Assembly: GCA_016188785.1 (NCBI GenBank)
Contig: JACPHD010000039.1
Location: 1-47,906 of the forward strand
DNA: 47,906 bases
Direction: 5' to 3'
From: Parcubacteria group bacterium
GTDB lineage: Bacteria; Patescibacteriota; Patescibacteriia; Patescibacteriales; GWC2-42-12
In this document: positions 208-20,233 of the stretch, piece after piece
How the letters are laid out: each line of letters starts with the position of its first letter
Numbering within the stretch: position 1 is the stretch's first letter
Position numbers and translations under genes: made by a program
The notes under the pieces: model-generated
Databases searched by the model: none
Seen by the model: the letters and a program-made list of their open reading frames with translations, nothing else
Told to the model about the DNA's origin: nothing

Positions 208-1470
208 ATGGCGAAAAATTTAGATGGCATAAAAAAATTAAATCCCGAGGAAGTGAAAAAGAATCGTAAAATAGTTTTAAATTATATCGGCGAAAAAGAT
301 ACGGACCCGCTTGCCGGACGGGCAGGCTTGAGCAAAGAGCCCGGGTTAGCGAGCCGGGTTAGCTCGGTTTCTACGAATCGGGTTGACGGTCTTAGATTAA
401 ATAAGCCGCCGGAGTGGCCGGCGCTGGCAAAAGGCAATCAGGCCAGCCAGCAGGAAAAAATTAATTTTGCCGAAGAAAAAATCAGACTGGAAAAAATTGA
501 GCGGGCCGAGTTGATTAAAAAAGCCAATGCCAAAAAAGCTAAATTTAAAGCCGAAGAAAAATTTAAAGACGAGCAAGCCGGAAAGTTGCGCGAAAAATTA
601 AAGCTGGAGGAAAAGCTGCGAGCCGAAGAAAGAATAATAGAAGAAAATAAGCGCCGGCAAGAAATAAAACGGGCGGAAGAAATAAAAAGAATAAAAGAGG
701 AAGTTAAATTAGCTAAGGCCAAAGCCGCGGTTAAGAGAAAAGCAAAACGGCAAAAAGCCATCAAGCTGTTTAAGCAGAAGCTAAATAATAAATTAAACGA
801 AATTTTTTCCGCGGTTAAGAGAAATTTCGTCTTCGGTGCATTATATTTAATTGTTTTTTTAATTATCGGCTATACGGTTTTTTGCTTATTGGCGCTAAGG
901 CTTAAAACCGATAATAGCGTAATCGCCAAGCTGGCGCGCGTCTTGCCGGTGCCGGCGGCGCTTACCAGCCAGGGCCTAATAAATTATAATGATTGGCGCG
1001 ATTTAAAAAATGATAATAACACTAATTTAGCCAAATGGATAATTTTAAGGAATTTAAGCAGAAAATATAAAATGCCTGATAATTTGCCGGATAAAGTTTT
1101 GGCCGCGGCTTTTATTAAGGATGAAGATTTTAATCAAGCCGGACTGTTAAGAATAAAAAAAATCAGCCAGCTTTTAAAAGGCGCCGACGATCTGGAGCTG
1201 GCGAGCAAATATGCCGACGAAGCCAGCGGAGTAATTTATTATAATCATGAAGAGGCGGCGGAAAAATTCGGGCCGGCGATTTTTAATTTAAAAACCAATC
1301 AGACCAGCGATATAATTTTTAGCGATAATGGCTACTATATCGCGCAAAACGTCGGCGATAAAAATAGCCAGTCAGGCCTTAAATACCTTTTTGTCCGAGC
1401 CAAAACTTTAGATCAGTATATCAGCGAAAAATCGGCCAAGATTAAAATCTTTATTTTAGCTAACAATTAA
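208..1470 (+). CDS. Coiled-coil, single-pass membrane protein of unknown function
   Basis: I do not recognise a family. Residues about 75-205 are a highly charged Lys/Glu/Ala/Arg-rich stretch that should form a long cytoplasmic coiled coil. A single hydrophobic segment at about 207-230 is followed by about 190 residues that should lie outside the membrane. The topology resembles bitopic anchoring or cell-division proteins, but no named domain is visible. Residues about 31-62 are odd: the DNA (about 300-390) holds a GC-rich direct repeat containing CCGGGTTAGC twice, which looks like a repeat element carried in frame. The 3' end overlaps the convergent glutamate dehydrogenase gene by four bases. 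An antisense ORF over the coiled coil is a shadow of the Lys/Glu codons. Confidence 0.75.
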   Translation: MAKNLDGIKKLNPEEVKKNRKIVLNYIGEKDTDPLAGRAGLSKEPGLASRVSSVSTNRVDGLRLNKPPEWPALAKGNQASQQEKINFAEEKIRLEKIERAELIKKANAKKAKFKAEEKFKDEQAGKLREKLKLEEKLRAEERIIEENKRRQEIKRAEEIKRIKEEVKLAKAKAAVKRKAKRQKAIKLFKQKLNNKLNEIFSAVKRNFVFGALYLIVFLIIGYTVFCLLALRLKTDNSVIAKLARVLPVPAALTSQGLINYNDWRDLKNDNNTNLAKWIILRNLSRKYKMPDNLPDKVLAAAFIKDEDFNQAGLLRIKKISQLLKGADDLELASKYADEASGVIYYNHEEAAEKFGPAIFNLKTNQTSDIIFSDNGYYIAQNVGDKNSQSGLKYLFVRAKTLDQYISEKSAKIKIFILANN

Positions 1471-2615
1471 AAGACCGAGGTTTTGTTTTTCATTTTTTGC
1501 TGGACTCTGTCTATGGCGATTTGCCTAGCCACGGCTCGCGGATATTTTTTTGTTTTCAGACTTTGGCGTAAAATTTCTTCAGTTGACTTGGTAATCTTGC
1601 GCTTAACCAGATCAAACATCCGTTTGGCATTATAGCCGCGATACTCGGCATAAGAAGAAATCACTCCGCCGGCGTTAGCCACAAAATCAGGAATGATGAG
1701 AATGCCGCTAGCGGACAGCTCGGCTTCAATACTTTCGCTCATGGGAATGTTGCCGGCTTCAACTATGATTTTGGCTTTAAGCTTGTTTTTATTAGTGTCA
1801 TTAATAACATCAGTAACCGAGGCCGGGATTAAAATATCAACCGGTAAAGACCAAAAGTCTGCCGGAGATATTTTTTTAGAACTAAAGGCCGCGGTCAGAG
1901 GTATTTTTTTACTGATTATTTTTTTTATAACTTGCTCGTCAAAACCGTCCGGCGAATAAACCGCGCCGCCAACATCGGCGATCGCCGTTATCTTGGCTCC
2001 CAGATCGCGCAAAAATTTATAGGTGAAAGTGCCGACATTGCCAAAGCCGTGGATGGCGGCAGAAGCTCCTTTTAGATTAAGATTGGCGAATTTAGCCGCC
2101 ACGGCTGCGGCTTGGGCTACGCCGAAACCAGTACTGCCGAATTCATGGGGAATGCCGCATTTTTTGCTCTTGCGTCCGAATACTTTTAAGCAATAATTAG
2201 CTGGCTTGCCCGTGGCCGCGCGCCAGTTGCCAACCGCTTCAACGAACCACTGCATTTCTTTTTCTCCAGTATTGACATCCGGACCGGCAATGTATTTTTT
2301 AATCAGGAACGGCTTAATGGCGCGCGCGAAATTCTGAATGATTTGTTTTTTCTTAACTGCCGGTTGGCTGCCATCCCATTTGACGCCGGCCTTGGCTCCG
2401 CCGAAAGGGATGCCGGCCAGGGCGTTTTTCCAGGTCATGGTCGCGGCCAGACGTTTTACCTCGGCCATGGTTATATTGGCTGACAGGCGAATACCGCCTT
2501 TACCCGGACCCAGGGCTGTATTATGAATAACTAAAAAACCTTCCAGACCTGATTTCGCGTCCCTTACTTCCAGCGCGTATTCCGGACCGTATGGATCGGT
2601 TATATTTTCTATCAT
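1467..2615 (-). CDS. gdhA: Glutamate dehydrogenase (Glu/Leu/Phe/Val dehydrogenase family)
   Basis: The protein should interconvert glutamate and 2-oxoglutarate plus ammonium using NAD(P). The substrate domain shows 'GPGKGGIR' near residue 37 and 'TWKNALAGIPFGGAKAG' near residue 60, which contains the glycine- and lysine-rich catalytic region, followed by 'GPDVNTGEKEM'. A Rossmann-type dinucleotide motif 'GFGNVGT' lies near residue 190. At 382 residues it is somewhat shorter than the usual 410-450. Leucine dehydrogenase is an alternative, but 'PDVNTGEKEM' favours glutamate dehydrogenase. No Shine-Dalgarno is seen before the ATG. A palindromic repeat element lies between it and the gene for Ddl on the same strand. 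Confidence 0.88.
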   Translation of the reverse strand: MIENITDPYGPEYALEVRDAKSGLEGFLVIHNTALGPGKGGIRLSANITMAEVKRLAATMTWKNALAGIPFGGAKAGVKWDGSQPAVKKKQIIQNFARAIKPFLIKKYIAGPDVNTGEKEMQWFVEAVGNWRAATGKPANYCLKVFGRKSKKCGIPHEFGSTGFGVAQAAAVAAKFANLNLKGASAAIHGFGNVGTFTYKFLRDLGAKITAIADVGGAVYSPDGFDEQVIKKIISKKIPLTAAFSSKKISPADFWSLPVDILIPASVTDVINDTNKNKLKAKIIVEAGNIPMSESIEAELSASGILIIPDFVANAGGVISSYAEYRGYNAKRMFDLVKRKITKSTEEILRQSLKTKKYPRAVARQIAIDRVQQKMKNKTSVF

Positions 2616-10927: not shown

Positions 10928-11513
10928 TTAGCTTACTTTACTGATAAAGGCGAGAATAATGCGGAGGCAAGGGGGGTTAACCTCCATAATATGGAATTAG
11001 GCAATTGTCGGCCTTTAAATTCTATAACCATCCCCCGCATTATCCTCGTATTTATCGAGGTAAAAATGTTCTTTAAAATTCACCCAGCACTAATTTTTTT
11101 TGTGGCGAGAAAGATGGAGAGGAGAGAGACTGGCTGGATTGCGGGATATTCCCAAATTTGGTCGGCAAAAATTTTAAAAATTCCCCTTCATCTTTCTCTT
11201 CGGAGAAATGGTTTGTTCTTTGAAATGCTAATATTTTCAACGAAGCGTTTAGGGTAGTTAGGTAAAATTTTCAAGCACCAATTTTCAATTTACAATGAAT
11301 TTTCAATGAATTAATTTTCAATTTGAAAATTTAGTCATTGGTCATTCATTGAAAATTGGTCATTGAAAATTGAAAATTTCCAAGTGCTTTAACCGCTTCG
11401 TTGAAGGAGCAAAATGACCCGCGTCGCCGAGCTGGCGCTTGGCAAAAAACGCGGGTTGAGGATGGGGAAAAAAGAAAGAAAGAAAAAAGGAGAAAAAAAT
11501 GTTCTTTAAAAAT
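10928..11513 (+). ncRNA. Structured RNA unit of the array with three boxA-like motifs; no gene
   Basis: This gene-free stretch holds successive hairpin arms: CGAGAATAATGCGG against CCGCATTATCCTCG, CCTCG/CGAGG, GAGAAAGATG against CATCTTTCTC, and TTCAACGAAGCG (11236-11247) against CGCTTCGTTGAA (11394-11405). Inside the last pair sits an AT-rich palindrome of TTGAAAA-type words (about 11278-11380). BoxA-like motifs TGTTCTTTRAAA occur at 11067, 11214 and 11500. The 11236/11394 stem has a counterpart with compensatory changes at 14356/14537, which is evidence for a real RNA fold. An ORF at 10877-11257 in this stretch has no ribosome site and I treat it as spurious. Confidence 0.6.
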
Positions 11514-13009: not shown

Positions 13010-13201
13010 AGATTTAAGCGATAAGCAAATTGGACATAAAAATATTGTGTCCAGCTTGCTTTCCGTTTGGAAAGTGAAAACTCAAGCCGCGCGTCATCAG
13101 CGATTTGGGTGAAAAATGAAAAAATAAAGCCTACGGGCGCCTCTCCGAGTTAGCCATTGGCTCGGTGATGATAGGGGTTTCTCTAAGAAAGGAGGAAAAA
13201 A
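13010..13201 (+). ncRNA. Array RNA unit, family I, 5' part with conserved short-ORF leader
   Basis: It starts with AGCAAATTGGACATAAAAAT, the shared start of family I. GGACAT/GTGTCC closes a hairpin, then CTTTCC-GTTT-GGAAAG, then a CAGCGA arm after CCGCGCGTCAT. From about 13127 the sequence is nearly identical to 19801-19868: CTCCGAG...CTCGG hairpin, then GATGA, AGGGGTTTCTC and AAGAAAGGAGG. The last part is the ribosome-binding site of the short ORF that follows and can pair with the CTC just before it, so translation may be controlled by folding. Confidence 0.6.
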
Positions 13202-13351
13202 ATGGCAGAGATAAGTTTAAGGAAAAAAATAAGGGATGAACAGGTTAAGGCGGCAATCGCCGCCCAAGAACGCCGGGACAAAACCGGCAAAGATGAGGGG
13301 CCGAAGGAGAAGTCCCCAATACCGTACGATGCCTGGATGCACGTACGGTAG
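13202..13351 (+). CDS. Short basic ORF in array RNA unit (49 residues)
   Basis: The ATG follows a full Shine-Dalgarno (AAAGGAGG, about seven bases before). The product is hydrophilic and charged, with 'RKKIRDEQVKAAIAAQERR' near the N-terminus. I recognise no family. Its upstream leader is nearly the same as the leader of the unrelated zinc-ribbon ORF at 19877, which suggests both are payloads of one expression device. Its stop lies just before a hammerhead core. Coding status rests on the ribosome-binding site and leader only. Confidence 0.5.
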   Translation: MAEISLRKKIRDEQVKAAIAAQERRDKTGKDEGPKEKSPIPYDAWMHVR

Positions 13352-13357
13352 GTAATA

Positions 13358-13412
13358 AACAGTCTCGGATGCGTGTCCGGGCTGATGAGTTCAAAAGAGC
13401 GAAAATTGGATC
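13358..13412 (+). ncRNA. Hammerhead ribozyme core, copy 1 (probably impaired)
   Basis: Stem I CTCGGA (13364-13369) pairs with TCCGGG (13376-13381, one T-G). The core CTGATGA is at 13382-13388, stem II GTTC-AAAA-GAGC follows, then GAAA at 13401-13404 and AATTGGATC. The base expected to be U16.1 is G here, so stem III and cleavage are doubtful. A GGCGCT/AGCGTC hairpin follows before the boxA at 13443. Confidence 0.7.
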
Positions 13413-13462: not shown

Positions 13463-13813
13463 TCAGCGATCGGATTTTCTATAAATCCATTTGCCTTTTT
13501 GTTTGGCTTTTGACATTATGGCCGAGTATTTTTCTATGTTAGAAAATTCTTTTGGCGTATAACCGATAATATCCATGGCAACCTGGTAGCTAACCTTGTC
13601 TCTAGTGTGATTCAAAAGGCTTAGCCGCTTGTCAAAGTCATACTTTGCAAAGTCTTTGGAGATAACTGCTAAATCCACATCACTATGTTTGGTTGGTTTG
13701 CCCCAGGCAAATGAGCCGAATAATAAAACACTGTCAACCCGGATTTTATTTTCCAGGGTACTAATATAATGATTGATGATTTTTTTGGGAAATTTTACTG
13801 TGGTTTGAGCCAT
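13463..13813 (-). CDS. Minimal nucleotidyltransferase of an array module
   Basis: 'LLFGSFAWGKPTKHSDVDLAVI' gives GS plus DxD near residues 30-50; the C-terminal part 'DIIGYTPKEF' corresponds to the 'EPVGFNPKDF' motif of the other array MNTs. At 116 residues it is a typical MNT. It overlaps its HEPN partner by 19 bases. It is more diverged from the 12.3 and 17.3 kb copies than they are from each other. Confidence 0.82.
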   Translation of the reverse strand: MAQTTVKFPKKIINHYISTLENKIRVDSVLLFGSFAWGKPTKHSDVDLAVISKDFAKYDFDKRLSLLNHTRDKVSYQVAMDIIGYTPKEFSNIEKYSAIMSKAKQKGKWIYRKSDR

Positions 13814-14184
13814 AAAAATAATTTTTTAGTATGGATAAGCAATTCTTTGGCGATTTTTCTATTAGGGCTGGATAATGGTTTATAGATTAAATCTGGATAA
13901 CGCGAACGTAAATAAAATTTGTTTAATTCTTCTAAAAGCGTTGTCTGCTGTTTTGATAAATTTATTTCGGCCAGAGATGACAGGCGCGGCAGATCATGAA
14001 TTTTAAGCAGTTCTTTCTTTTTCTTGATGATAATCATTTTTAGCGCTTTCTCAATTGTCTGGTGGCAATGCCAAAGAACCAAAAGATAGGTCCAGTGAGT
14101 CGGTTTTGGACTGTTAAATAATCTTTTGGCCGCATCCAGATCAGATTGAGCAAATAAAATCCATTTTTGAAGAATTAGTTTCAT
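13795..14184 (-). CDS. HEPN-domain protein of an array module
   Basis: A 129-residue helical protein with 'QSDLDAAKRLFNSPKP' and 'LLVLWHCHQTIEKALKMIIIKK', matching the HEPN helix pair seen in the other modules ('CHLTLEK'). Partner of the MNT gene that overlaps its end. A good promoter lies about 50 bases upstream. The R-x4-6-H motif is not clear, so toxicity by RNase action is unproven. Confidence 0.78.
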   Translation of the reverse strand: MKLILQKWILFAQSDLDAAKRLFNSPKPTHWTYLLVLWHCHQTIEKALKMIIIKKKKELLKIHDLPRLSSLAEINLSKQQTTLLEELNKFYLRSRYPDLIYKPLSSPNRKIAKELLIHTKKLFLWLKPQ

Positions 14185-14244: not shown

Positions 14245-14639
14245 AATTTGAGCGGCCGGCAAATTGGACATAAAAATATTTTTTCCGTCCGAGCTTCTAA
14301 ATTGTTTTGGAAATTTAGCCGGGAGAGATTTTTCCCCAGTTCTTTAAAATAAACTTTCAACCAAGCGTTTAGAATGGTTACTCTTTATTGTCATTCCGGC
14401 CTTTGAGCCGGAATCCAGGGTTAAGCGGAACAAACATTCTGTTTAATAATCAGTTTAACAAACCGAACTGCCTACGGGCTTAACCTGGATTCCCGCCTGC
14501 GCGGGAATGACAGTAATAAAATAAACGTTTTAAACCCTTGGTTGAAGGCATCAGCCTAATTCGCGTCTTGCCGGGTGGCAAGCAGCGCGGGTTCAGGCTG
14601 ATGAGAAAACCTTTTTGCCATTGAGAGGAGGTGATAACA
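14245..14639 (+). ncRNA. Array RNA unit, family I start, with palindrome insert and short-ORF leader
   Basis: The gene-free 14185-14639 stretch starts with the family I motif GCAAATTGGACATAAAAATA. A TAAATT/AATTTA hairpin and the boxA-like AGTTCTTTAAAA (14338) follow. TTCAACCAAG (14356-14365) pairs with CTTGGTTGAA (14537-14546); the equivalent stem at 11236/11394 has G and C exchanged at the matching pair. The loop of this stem holds a complete TGTCATTCC palindrome. After that come nested hairpins CATCAGCCT/AGGCTGATG enclosing CGCG/CGCG and CTTGCC/GGCAAG, and then the GAGGAGGTG ribosome site of the next gene. Confidence 0.6.
14389..14512. repeat. TGTCATTCC-family palindromic repeat inside an RNA loop
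   Basis: It begins TGTCATTCCGGC and ends GCGGGAATGACA, with inner CTGGATTCC-type complements. It belongs to the family seen at 20295, 37993 and 2641, and it sits in the loop of the conserved 14356/14537 stem. Confidence 0.75.
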
Positions 14640-17104: not shown

Positions 17105-17323
17105 CAATGAAATTCAAACGGCCAGCAACTTGGACATAAAAATTTTGTGTTCAGCTTGCTTTCCGTTTGGAAAGTGAAACTCAATCCGCGCGTCATCAGC
17201 GGCTTGAGTGAAAAATGAAAAAGCCCACTTTCTCGGATGAGTGTCCGAGCTGATGAGCTCAAAAGAGCGAAAATTGGATCACGGCGCTATTTTTAAAAGC
17301 GCCGGGTAAAATGTTCTTTAAAA
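17105..17323 (+). ncRNA. Array RNA unit, family I, complete copy with hammerhead and boxA
   Basis: This copy has no short ORF and shows the unit in simple form. It has a GGACAT/GTGTTC hairpin, CTTTCC-gttt-GGAAAG, ACTCAA against TTGAGT enclosing CCGC/GCGG, the hammerhead (17225-17279), a perfect CGGCGCT/AGCGCCG hairpin (17282-17304), and boxA TGTTCTTTAAAA (17312-17323). The next base after it leads into the stop codon of the convergent MNT gene (17327). Confidence 0.65.
17225..17279 (+). ncRNA. Hammerhead ribozyme, type III arrangement, copy 2
   Basis: Stem III CCACTT (17225-17230) pairs with AATTGG (17272-17277) with one mismatch; the cleavage base would be U17231. Stem I CTCGGA/TCCGAG is perfect with loop TGAGTG. 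The invariant CTGATGA lies at 17250-17256, stem II is GCTC-AAAA-GAGC, and GAAA follows at 17269-17272. Compared with copies 1 and 3, stem I and stem II show compensating changes. All core bases are present; the UUU cleavage triplet is unusual. Confidence 0.8.
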
Positions 17324-17326
17324 ATA

Positions 17327-17665
17327 TTAAATCAATTGCTTTAGTTTTATTTCTAGGCCGGTTCTTTTAATTTCATGAATAAGAGAATCTTCGTCGGCAA
17401 AATCTTTAGGACTAAAGCCGATTGGCTCAATCACCGGAGTTTTGTGGTCAGTTCTTTTCTCCCAAAGATATTGAAGAGCGTCCCAGGCGTTTTTAAACTT
17501 AGGCGAAATAACGCATAAATCAATATCGCTCCATTTATTTTGAGCGCCTTTGGCGTAAGAGCCAAACAGGATAACTTTTTGAATGGGAAGTTTGTCTTTA
17601 TTCAGGATATTAAGGTAGTTTTTAATGTTTCTTTTTACCTTTAGAGGTATTGTTCTTTTAGCCAT
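17327..17665 (-). CDS. Minimal nucleotidyltransferase of an array module
   Basis: The core is 'VILFGSYAKGAQNKWSDIDLCVI' (residues about 32-54), with the tail motif 'IEPIGFSPKDFADEDSLIHEI'. It is the closest relative in the window of the MNT at 12265, sharing 'NKWSD.DLCV.SPKFK'. Overlaps its HEPN partner by 25 bases. The stop codon lies three bases from a plus-strand boxA-like motif. Confidence 0.82.
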   Translation of the reverse strand: MAKRTIPLKVKRNIKNYLNILNKDKLPIQKVILFGSYAKGAQNKWSDIDLCVISPKFKNAWDALQYLWEKRTDHKTPVIEPIGFSPKDFADEDSLIHEIKRTGLEIKLKQLI

Positions 17666-18033
17666 AATGATAAATTTTTAGAGATTTCTAAATAATGGGA
17701 CGCGTATTCTTTGGTGCACATTTTATAAAAGTTGTATTTATGAGTGTCATAGCGAGCCGCTATATTAAAGGTAGTAATTATTTTTAAGTTTTTCATCTGT
17801 TCTTGATTTAGTGTTAATTTCGCCAGATTAGCAAGTTCAGGCAAGTCATGGCCGCGAGGAGCTGATTCTTTCATTTCTTTCACCGCCAGCCCCTTTAAAA
17901 GTTTTTCTAAAGTTAAGTGGCAAAAAAATAAACAAGCGTCGTAATGTTTGGTTTTAAATAAATCCAGAGCGGTTTTCCAGTTATTTTCCGCGGAGATTTT
18001 CCAGTAGTTAATTTGTTTATTGATATTATCCAT
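17641..18033 (-). CDS. HEPN-domain protein of an array module
   Basis: Shares 'LFKTKHYDACLFFCHLTLEKL' with the HEPN at 12567, so these two modules are recent duplicates of one another or of a common donor. 130 residues, first gene of the pair, preceded by a very good promoter. The typical RNase R-x4-6-H signature is not apparent. Confidence 0.8.
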   Translation of the reverse strand: MDNINKQINYWKISAENNWKTALDLFKTKHYDACLFFCHLTLEKLLKGLAVKEMKESAPRGHDLPELANLAKLTLNQEQMKNLKIITTFNIAARYDTHKYNFYKMCTKEYASHYLEISKNLSLWLKEQYL

Positions 18034-18053
18034 AGCGCTATTTTTCTATTTTT

Positions 18054-18082
18054 ACTATAACAAAAGAGCTGATGCAGGTCAA
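18054..18082 (-). promoter_or_regulatory. Promoter of the HEPN-MNT pair at 17.3-18.0 kb
   Basis: Minus-strand TTGACC (18082-18077) and TATAGT (18059-18054) with a 17-base spacer. The -35 lies in the first bases of the family I RNA unit (GTCAAATTTAAGC on the plus strand), so the repeat seems to supply promoter sequence to its left neighbour. Confidence 0.7.
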
Positions 18083-18230
18083 ATTTAAGCGGCCAGCAAA
18101 TTGGACATAAAAATATTGTGTTCAGTTTACTTTCCGTTTGGAAAGTAAAAATTAAAACCCTCCTCCACTTTCTCGGATGCGTGTCCGGGCTGATGAGTCC
18201 GAAAGGACGAAAATTGGATGTTCTTTAAAA
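18083..18230 (+). ncRNA. Array RNA unit, family I, short copy with hammerhead and boxA
   Basis: The unit runs from CGGCCAGCAAATTGGACATA through the CTTTCC/GGAAAG hairpin, loses the middle stem, and goes to the hammerhead (18165-18219). BoxA TGTTCTTTAAAA (18219-18230) follows at once and contains the stop codon (18225-18227) of the convergent MNT gene. It is the shortest complete copy and defines the minimal unit. Confidence 0.65.
18165..18219 (+). ncRNA. Hammerhead ribozyme, type III arrangement, copy 3
   Basis: Stem III CCACTT (18165-18170) against AATTGG, preceded by one more T-A pair, with one mismatch. Stem I CTCGGA/TCCGGG, loop TGCGTG. Core CTGATGA at 18190-18196, stem II GTCC-GAAA-GGAC, GAAA at 18209-18212. 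The core and stem II are the textbook hammerhead sequence. Confidence 0.82.
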
Positions 18231-18563
18231 AGACGATTTTATTTCAATGCCATGTTTTTTGATTTCATTCACCAGCGGGTCAATGTTTTTGAAGTTTTCC
18301 GGATGATAACCAACCGGTTCAATGCGAGAATCAACATCCAGCGCTTTTTTCCATAAATATGTTTCGTAATAATCCGCTTTTTTGGAAAACTTATCTGAAA
18401 TCACACAAACATCAATATCGCTGTATGGCTTATAATTGCCTTTAGCGTAAGAACCATAGAGAATAATTTTCTTCACCGGAAAATTATCTCTTTGTAAAAG
18501 AGTTTTGTAGTTAAGCAAGATTGTTTTTATTGATTTTATTTTAGCGGTGGCAGTTTTTGACAT
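18225..18563 (-). CDS. Minimal nucleotidyltransferase of an array module
   Basis: 'IILYGSYAKGNYKPYSDIDVCVI' gives GS and DxD near residues 33-54, then 'IEPVGYHPENF'. 112 residues. Overlaps its HEPN partner by 28 bases. Clearly related to, but more diverged than, the 12.3 and 17.3 kb copies. Confidence 0.82.
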   Translation of the reverse strand: MSKTATAKIKSIKTILLNYKTLLQRDNFPVKKIILYGSYAKGNYKPYSDIDVCVISDKFSKKADYYETYLWKKALDVDSRIEPVGYHPENFKNIDPLVNEIKKHGIEIKSSF

Positions 18564-18937
18564 AATTGTTTATATAGGGCGTTAATTTTTTTTATTTTCG
18601 GTTCAGTATAGCGCCAAGTGCAGAGTTTATAAAACGACAATTTATAGTCTGGATAACGCGCCCGAATATTGAACTTGTTAGCCTCGGCCAGAAATTCTAA
18701 ATCAGCTTTATCTAAAACAAGGTTCGCGTCTTGGGCTAAAACCGCAAGATTATGAATTGGCTTTGAGTGATTTTTCGTTTCTTTTATTACCAGCGCCTTT
18801 AAAATTTTTTCCAGCATAAGATGGCCGTAAAACAAAGAGTCCGAATATCTTTTTGCTTTAAAAAGGCTGACCATTGTTTCACGATCGTGTTCAGCAGTTC
18901 TTTGCCAATATTTTATTAAAGCCTTGGTTTCTTTCAT
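18536..18937 (-). CDS. HEPN-domain protein of an array module
   Basis: 133 residues with 'RYSDSLFYGHLMLEKILKALVIKE' as HEPN core and 'NIRARYPDYKLSFYKL' near the C-terminus, the same layout as the other array HEPN proteins. First gene of its pair. A family II RNA unit begins about 40 bases upstream. Confidence 0.8.
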   Translation of the reverse strand: MKETKALIKYWQRTAEHDRETMVSLFKAKRYSDSLFYGHLMLEKILKALVIKETKNHSKPIHNLAVLAQDANLVLDKADLEFLAEANKFNIRARYPDYKLSFYKLCTWRYTEPKIKKINALYKQLCQKLPPLK

Positions 18938-19679: not shown

Positions 19680-19876
19680 CCTGTCAAATTCAAACGGCCA
19701 GCAAATTGGACATAAAAATATTATGTTCAGCTTGCTTTCCGTTGGGAAAGTTAAACTTAAGCCGCGCGTCATCAGCGGTTTGGGTGAAAGACAAAAAAAC
19801 AAAGCCCACGGGCGCCCCTCCGAGCTTGCCATTGGCTCGGTGATGACAGGGGTTTCTCCAAGAAAGGAGGAAGAAA
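19680..19876 (+). ncRNA. Array RNA unit, family I, with conserved short-ORF leader
   Basis: AACGGCCAGCAAATTGGACA start; GGACAT/ATGTTC hairpin (compensated against GTGTCC of 13.03 kb), CTTTCC/GGGAAAG hairpin, then the CCGC...GCGG arm. From 19801 it repeats the 13127-13196 leader nearly base for base: CCGAG/CTCGG hairpin, CCCCT/AGGGG outer stem, TTTCTCC facing GGAGGAA of the ribosome site. Confidence 0.6.
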
Positions 19877-20086
19877 ATGGCGGATTATGTAGAAGCGATA
19901 AGGGTGGCCTGCCCGCGTTGCGGGCAAGATGAAGGGTACTATTTTGGATATGGAGACGAGCGGGTGTGGCCACATTGCGATGAGTCCAAAAGGACGAAAG
20001 CAGAAAATTATGGTATAATAATGCCAATGGCCATTATAAGGCCGATGAATCAGCCTAACAGAATCGGATCGGGGCAGCAGTGTTGA
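19877..20086 (+). CDS. Short zinc-knuckle ORF overlapping a hammerhead relic
   Basis: 69 residues from an ATG with a strong Shine-Dalgarno (AAAGGAGG). 'VACPRCGQDEGYY' and 'VWPHC' may hold one zinc. From about residue 33 the frame runs through a degenerate hammerhead core (19977-20000), and the last 30 residues look unstructured, so the natural product may have been shorter and extended by fusion into the RNA unit. No family is recognised. Confidence 0.45.
   Translation: MADYVEAIRVACPRCGQDEGYYFGYGDERVWPHCDESKRTKAENYGIIMPMAIIRPMNQPNRIGSGQQC
19977..20000 (+). ncRNA. Degenerate hammerhead core (relic)
   Basis: GCGATGA replaces CTGATGA, but stem II GTCC-AAAA-GGAC and GAAA are intact. Stem I cannot be found in its usual form. 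It occupies the position after the short ORF start where copy 1 follows the 13.2 kb ORF. Confidence 0.5.
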
Positions 20087-20088
20087 GA

Positions 20089-20129
20089 TGTCCCTCTTCT
20101 AAAGAAACATTTCATTTAGAGAGGGGACA
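20089..20129 (+). terminator. Hairpin at the right end of the array
   Basis: TGTCCCTCTTCTAAA and TTTAGAGAGGGGACA pair over 15 positions (one mismatch, two G-T) three bases after the short ORF stop. AAAAATC follows rather than a T run, so its termination strength is uncertain. No array element appears to its right. Confidence 0.45.
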
Positions 20130-20204
20130 AAAATCTCTCTCCTCTAAAACACCGTTTCTCGATTTATTATTCAGTCAGGCTGGTTCGCGGCCTTATAATG
20201 GCCA

Positions 20205-20233
20205 TTGATTTTTTTTTGGTTTAACTATATAAT
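20205..20233 (+). promoter_or_regulatory. Promoter of secA
   Basis: TTGATT (20205-20210) and TATAAT (20228-20233) are 17 bases apart. The transcript would begin about 130 bases before the secA start and pass a 22-base perfect palindrome (20245-20266) and a repeat element. Confidence 0.65.

Follow-up and report, generated by a model that had tools for sequence, protein, structure and literature searches.

The contig analysed here (47,906 nucleotides from a Parcubacteria group bacterium, hereafter the window) carries between ftsX and secA an array in which short hammerhead-like elements recur on the plus strand, and it raises the question of whether these elements are ribozymes, whether they cleave, and what cleavage would do to the surrounding transcripts. 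The minus strand of the array encodes HEPN/MNT pairs, a PIN protein and an AAA/DUF4143 protein (open reading frames were called mechanically throughout).

Two complete and two broken copies of the element were located, all on the plus strand. Copy 2 (17225 to 17277) displayed a type III layout, with stem III at 17225-17230/17272-17277 (one mismatch, C17228·T17274), position 17 at 17231, predicted cleavage at 17231/17232, stem I at 17232-17237/17244-17249, the core at 17250-17256, stem II at 17257-17260/17265-17268 and GAAA at 17269-17272. Copy 3 (18165 to 18217), also of type III, had its predicted cleavage site at 18171/18172, stem I at 18172-18177/18184-18189, the core at 18190-18196 and stem II (GTCC/GGAC) at 18197-18200/18205-18208. 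Stem II differed between the two copies by two double compensations and stem I by the replacement of a U-A pair with U·G, all other differences lying in loop bases. Both possessed stem III with the U16.1-A15.1 pair; they are confirmed as complete type III hammerheads save for a single C·U mismatch within stem III. Copy 1 (13363 to 13404) kept the core and stems I and II; its stem III was gone, U16.1 was replaced by G at 13362, and it is predicted to be dead in cis. The invariant core (CUGANGA and GAAA) was present at 13382, 17250 and 18190 and absent at 19978, where the fourth copy (CGATGAGTCCAAAAGGACGAAA, 19978 to 19999) is a broken half-core fragment retaining stem II and GAAA only (20.1 bits, E 7.6e-4). 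Position 17 was U in the window copies, giving a UUU triplet, and the conserved loop I and loop II motifs (GNGU, NAAA) were carried.

The sequence-only reading of this DNA had described these parts correctly: CTGATGA with GAAA at the three positions, stem I as CTCGGA/TCCGRG, stem II as GTTC/GAGC, GCTC/GAGC and GTCC/GGAC, a once-mismatched stem III (CCACTT/AATTGG) giving the type III layout at 17.2 and 18.2 kb, and the loss of U16.1 in copy 1 were all found in the sequence. It had also placed a relic at 19977. Stem II and part of the core do match there, over 19978-19999, and as this fragment lies within the 3' part of a zinc-ribbon-like ORF starting at 19878, its status as a relic is plausible and unproven.

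Rfam at its own cut-offs returned tRNAs only and no hammerhead from the window. Under permissive settings, the type III model RF00008 matched copy 2 at 26.6 bits (E 0.024) and copy 3 at 24.6 bits (E 0.094), so that the comparison with Rfam hammerhead models proposed earlier did match both copies, but below the gathering cut-off of 48.5 bits. Since most relatives fail likewise (one Rfam hammerhead match above cut-off among 18 relative loci), this shortfall reflects the threshold rather than biology. A loose core pattern gave 10 matches in the window against 2.0 expected, an excess that is weak on its own because three of the matches were minus-strand ones in the leader repeat described below.

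A first model, built from the three window copies, matched a relative that belongs to a different genus of the family; its stem III (GCTCTT/AAGAGT) had no mismatch and its triplet was UUC. The next search matched 11 of the 111 genomes from the order. In an alignment of fifteen sequences, 94.5% pairing was seen and covariation scored 0.811, compared with 0.278 after shuffling. The final model (R3) comprised 145 non-window sequences, with 95.5% of cells paired, compensatory changes in all three stems, and covariation of 0.902 compared with 0.221 when shuffled and at most 0.13 when partners were slid. Our model without window sequences scored copy 2 at 62.4 bits (E 1.3e-17) and copy 3 at 62.7 bits (E 1.1e-17); copy 1 reached 45.1 bits (E 6e-12). 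The proposed hammerhead identity is thus supported by non-window model scores and by covariation.

As the 145 sequences had been collected with models seeded from the window, a separate test used loci chosen only by a 23-nt core and stem II string (CTGATGAGTCCNAAAGGACGAAA). Stem I was present at 117 of the 123 genome sites chosen in this way, and these included 116 with U16.1, none with G at position 17 and 99 with stem III, the last compared with 13.3 after 3' flanks were exchanged among loci and 0.15 after shuffling of 5' flanks. Among 61 viral sites, stem I was found at 58, U16.1 at 58, G at position 17 at none and stem III at 43; the corresponding exchange of 3' flanks gave 21.4, a high control value because many viral stems III are alike. 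G at position 17 was likewise found in 0 of 145 aligned relatives and 0 of 175 sequences of the core-pattern set (the rule-based finder that yielded 286 relatives barred this base by design, which makes its counts unusable here). Avoidance of G at this position is a demand of cleavage chemistry and not of base pairing, and the family therefore looks catalytically constrained. Loop I of the relatives was mostly U-GNGU and loop II NAAA, conserved at the sequence level as expected of a tertiary contact. Self-cleavage by the family appears very likely from these sequence patterns.

A broader model detected relatives in 38 of the 381 genomes sampled from the class and in 43 of the 380 from the phylum (about 11% for the latter). 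The 23-nt pattern occurred in at least 118 stretches of named species genomes and in 69 stretches of viral contigs. Nearly all informatively named entries among the 80 matches listed were Patescibacteria (Saccharibacteria, Falkowbacteria, Kaiserbacteria, Nomurabacteria, Shapirobacteria and others), the exceptions being one Phycisphaerales and one Polynucleobacter bin. On a single Patescibacteria contig (G577:C16, 13610-30270; loci L295 and L296), six hammerhead matches lay on one strand. A plain DNA search for close relatives gave, outside the own genome, one short non-ribozyme match only. No paper linking hammerheads with the Candidate Phyla Radiation or Patescibacteria was found among open-licence literature, and the relatives form a large, apparently undescribed set across Patescibacteria and phages.

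The relatives shared a precise anatomy. A strong hairpin, with a stem of median length 10 bp, ended within a few bases 5' of the stem III start at 72 of 152 genome loci (4 to 14 in controls) and 47 of 58 viral ones (0 to 3). After removal of similar sequences, the same was seen at 80 of 162 genome sites (10 to 19 in controls) and 38 of 52 viral sites (1 to 3), the control rate for an abutting 5' hairpin on non-redundant sites being about 2 to 12%. Hairpins 3' of stem III were near control at genome sites (12 of 152) and in slight excess at viral sites (10 of 60, control 1 to 4). The upstream gene was co-directional at 81 of 88 viral and 134 of 184 genome sites. The distance from its stop codon to the cleavage site in viruses was tight (median 37 nt, quartiles 31 to 43), so that stop, hairpin and ribozyme adjoin without slack. 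A strong hairpin thus usually adjoins the 5' side of stem III, typically right after a same-strand stop codon, and this arrangement is apparently new. No common gene family emerged among 101 upstream proteins, which were mostly small and without known family, most having no match at all. At least two copies on one strand were found in 44 of 214 loci, with gaps often of 0.3 to 2 kb. One Parcubacteria record (L106, 2200-6700) held at least eight hammerhead copies in about 4 kb, each preceded by a hairpin whose sequence varied with pairing kept; these units alternated with a repeated three-hairpin element around a helicase-like gene.

The window copies displayed this anatomy in looser form. Plus-strand hairpins were found at 17179-17209 (11 bp, one mismatch), 18126-18149 (a perfect 10 bp) and 13320-13350 (9 bp), and none abutted its ribozyme, the first two stopping 15 nt short of stem III in copies 2 and 3 and the third 6 nt upstream of copy 1. 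The third hairpin overlaps the stop codon of a small plus-strand ORF (13202-13351, 49 aa, with a ribosome-binding site, read by eye), and copy 1 therefore shows the usual order of gene, hairpin and hammerhead. No gene directly precedes the intact copies 2 and 3; instead, both follow a structured leader repeat of 113 nt (17110 to 17222, plus strand), with further copies at 13010, 18081 and 19686 and a partial one at 14246. The folding z-score of 17105-17330 was -5.6, and within the genome the leader repeat was found on this contig only. Strong minus-strand promoter-like sites occurred at the left edge of the leaders (17097, 18082, 19672), and a simple scan gave no convincing plus-strand promoter just before them. 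Each leader had the sequence AAATTGGA close to its start, with a second occurrence in the region of the stem III 3' strand (13028/13403, 17132/17271, 18100/18211); the two form a short direct repeat on either side of the leader-hammerhead unit, in the form AACTTGGA at 17.1 kb. The leader copies at 13130-13200 and 19805-19878 ran into a stem (GGAG paired with CTCC or similar) by which a small ORF may have its ribosome-binding site masked, a possible translation control.

Downstream, the boxA-like sequence TGTTCTTTRAAAA was found at 17312-17324 (plus strand) after copy 2 and at 11500, 12250, 13443, 18219 and 19073. This array holds six of its seven occurrences in the genome, each on the plus strand, and those from 12250 on adjoin convergent toxin-antitoxin genes at the 3' end. 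A tie to an rRNA leader was rejected, the seventh occurrence (L286) having no rRNA in its 2-kb locus. Convergent minus-strand MNT and HEPN pairs lie downstream of copy 2 (17327 to 18033, with MNT at 17327-17665 and HEPN at 17641-18033; PF01909/PF18765 and PF05168), copy 3 (18225 to 18937) and copy 1 (13463 to 14184). A general link between the ribozymes and HEPN/MNT genes was also discarded: besides locus L022 (L037 being the same place), one further locus had an MNT-like match. The antisense role is therefore a local guess only, and the role suggested by the sequence-only reading, in which cleavage separates upstream RNA from a boxA and antisense part, was not established; the placement of the relatives favours 3'-end formation of the upstream RNA. 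A candidate structured RNA was noted in the window at 20010-20220 (plus strand) and in L022 at about 1330-1520 (minus strand), preceded by a TATAAT box. Its closing stem varies between the two loci with pairing kept, its inner motifs are AACAGAATC, GCAGTGT and CTCTCTCCTCTAAA, and it follows the hammerhead fragment in the window and an intact hammerhead in L022. It had no Rfam match.

Folding of the window copies was less favourable than that of most relatives. RNAfold, whose model has no loop I/loop II contact, favoured a CUGAU:AUUGG helix over the hammerhead fold by 4.1 kcal/mol, and about 91% of relatives had a smaller gap. Folding of 17105-17330 at minimum energy paired the leader with the 5' strand of stem III, and a similar pairing was obtained for copy 3. 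The triplet UUU, earlier considered a weak cleavage site, was found in only 10 of 286 relatives, which agrees with that view. Given the rare triplet, the fold gap, the hairpin 15 nt away and the missing upstream gene, present activity of the intact copies is likely but uncertain. The proposal that the units cut themselves just before stem I was borne out for the position of the site; cutting by the window copies themselves stays a prediction, with a weak stem III and a better rival fold against it.

We place at roughly 60% the probability that the intact copies are hammerheads of the Patescibacteria- and phage-wide set which cut plus-strand RNA for 3'-end formation or insulation, copy 1 and the 19.98-kb copy being broken. 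A chance or coding sequence resembling a hammerhead could account for scores under the Rfam gathering cut-off and for a fragment inside an ORF; it is scarcely credible, being rejected by covariation of 0.902 versus 0.221, E-values of about 1e-17 and the string-chosen loci, and refuted for copies 2 and 3. A genuine hammerhead ancestry without present function, in which the window copies are carried along by duplication of the leader repeat while decaying, is doubtful but deserves more weight. Two of four copies are broken, stem III, triplet and fold compare unfavourably with relatives, and the intact copies lack an upstream gene and follow a leader confined to this contig; however, the changes between copies 2 and 3 keep pairing or sit in loops, and the conserved loop motifs are retained.

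Two further readings would give the array a more elaborate function. The leader sequence GGAAAGUG might pair with CCACUUUC on the stem III 5' strand and gate cleavage, hence antisense transcription into the toxin-antitoxin operons. This pairing is the one in the minimum-energy fold and a boxA-like sequence comes after it, yet it may be a chance likeness to the adjacent CTTTCC hairpin, the leader has no relatives from which covariation could be read, and the HEPN/MNT association is not general; such a switch is improbable. Still less probable is that paired hammerheads excise a unit (e.g., 17232-18171, 940 nt) whose ends are then ligated to form a circular RNA, in the manner of retrozymes or viroid-like RNAs. 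The loci with several copies per strand and their gaps would suit it, but the spacing fits gene lengths and stop codons, and Perreault et al. (PMC3088659) report a search for splicing or circularisation by tandem bacterial hammerheads that yielded no such product. Retrozymes and viroid-like circular RNAs do share a type III ribozyme in repeated copies; unlike them, the window shows no LTR-like repeats, sign of circles or rolling-circle setting, and has DNA-encoded gene arrays instead.

The preferred function, by analogy with the relatives, is 3'-end formation together with separation of neighbouring transcripts. From the observed sequences, covariation, chemical constraints and hairpin and gene placement in relatives, we infer the following for cleavage, RNA ends and function. 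The plus-strand RNA would fold and cut itself between U at position 17 and stem I. The upstream RNA (the structured leader, or a small mRNA in the original layout of copy 1) would keep a stable hairpin, followed by a short unpaired tail with a 2',3'-cyclic phosphate at its end, and the downstream RNA would begin with a 5'-OH. In relatives, the hairpin and a tail of roughly 7 nt left after the cut would look much like the end made by an intrinsic terminator, and the upstream transcript may by analogy gain a terminator-like, exonuclease-resistant end. The cut would also part it from RNA that continues into the convergent HEPN/MNT genes. Alternatively, the hairpin might be there to stack coaxially on stem III, which would be compatible with the 3'-end role.

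The window copies resemble type III hammerheads of RF00008 in their CUGAUGA...GAAA core, three stems, open stem III, U16.1-A15.1 pair, NUH triplet and loop I/II motifs, and differ in their score (25 to 27 bits versus 48.5), a tight stem II with an NAAA loop, a mostly GNGU loop I and the stem III mismatch. They also resemble the clustered bacterial and prophage hammerheads treated in the consulted part of Perreault et al. 2011 (PMC3088659), with several copies per locus flanking single genes. That part of the paper describes integrase and prophage gene contexts, without mention of Patescibacteria or a stop-codon-linked 5' hairpin; it reports cleavage of tandem bacterial sets in vitro and suggests that clusters of hammerheads in phages divide long transcripts into mRNAs the length of a gene, a suggestion that the present 3'-end proposal extends.

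The role of bacterial hammerheads has been a standing question since 2010-2011, and the Rfam cut-off hides a large set of these ribozymes. Hundreds of relatives, from one major uncultured phylum and viral contigs, share a precise geometry of stop codon, hairpin and cleavage site, which makes the 3'-end hypothesis directly testable. At odds that we put a little short of even, the succession of stop codon, hairpin and type III hammerhead would be a routine substitute for terminators in Patescibacteria and many phages, dividing polycistronic RNA into units of one gene each, whose 3' ends would carry a cyclic phosphate and be protected by a hairpin, and the array of the window would be a local, partly decayed instance capping leaders that face HEPN/MNT operons.
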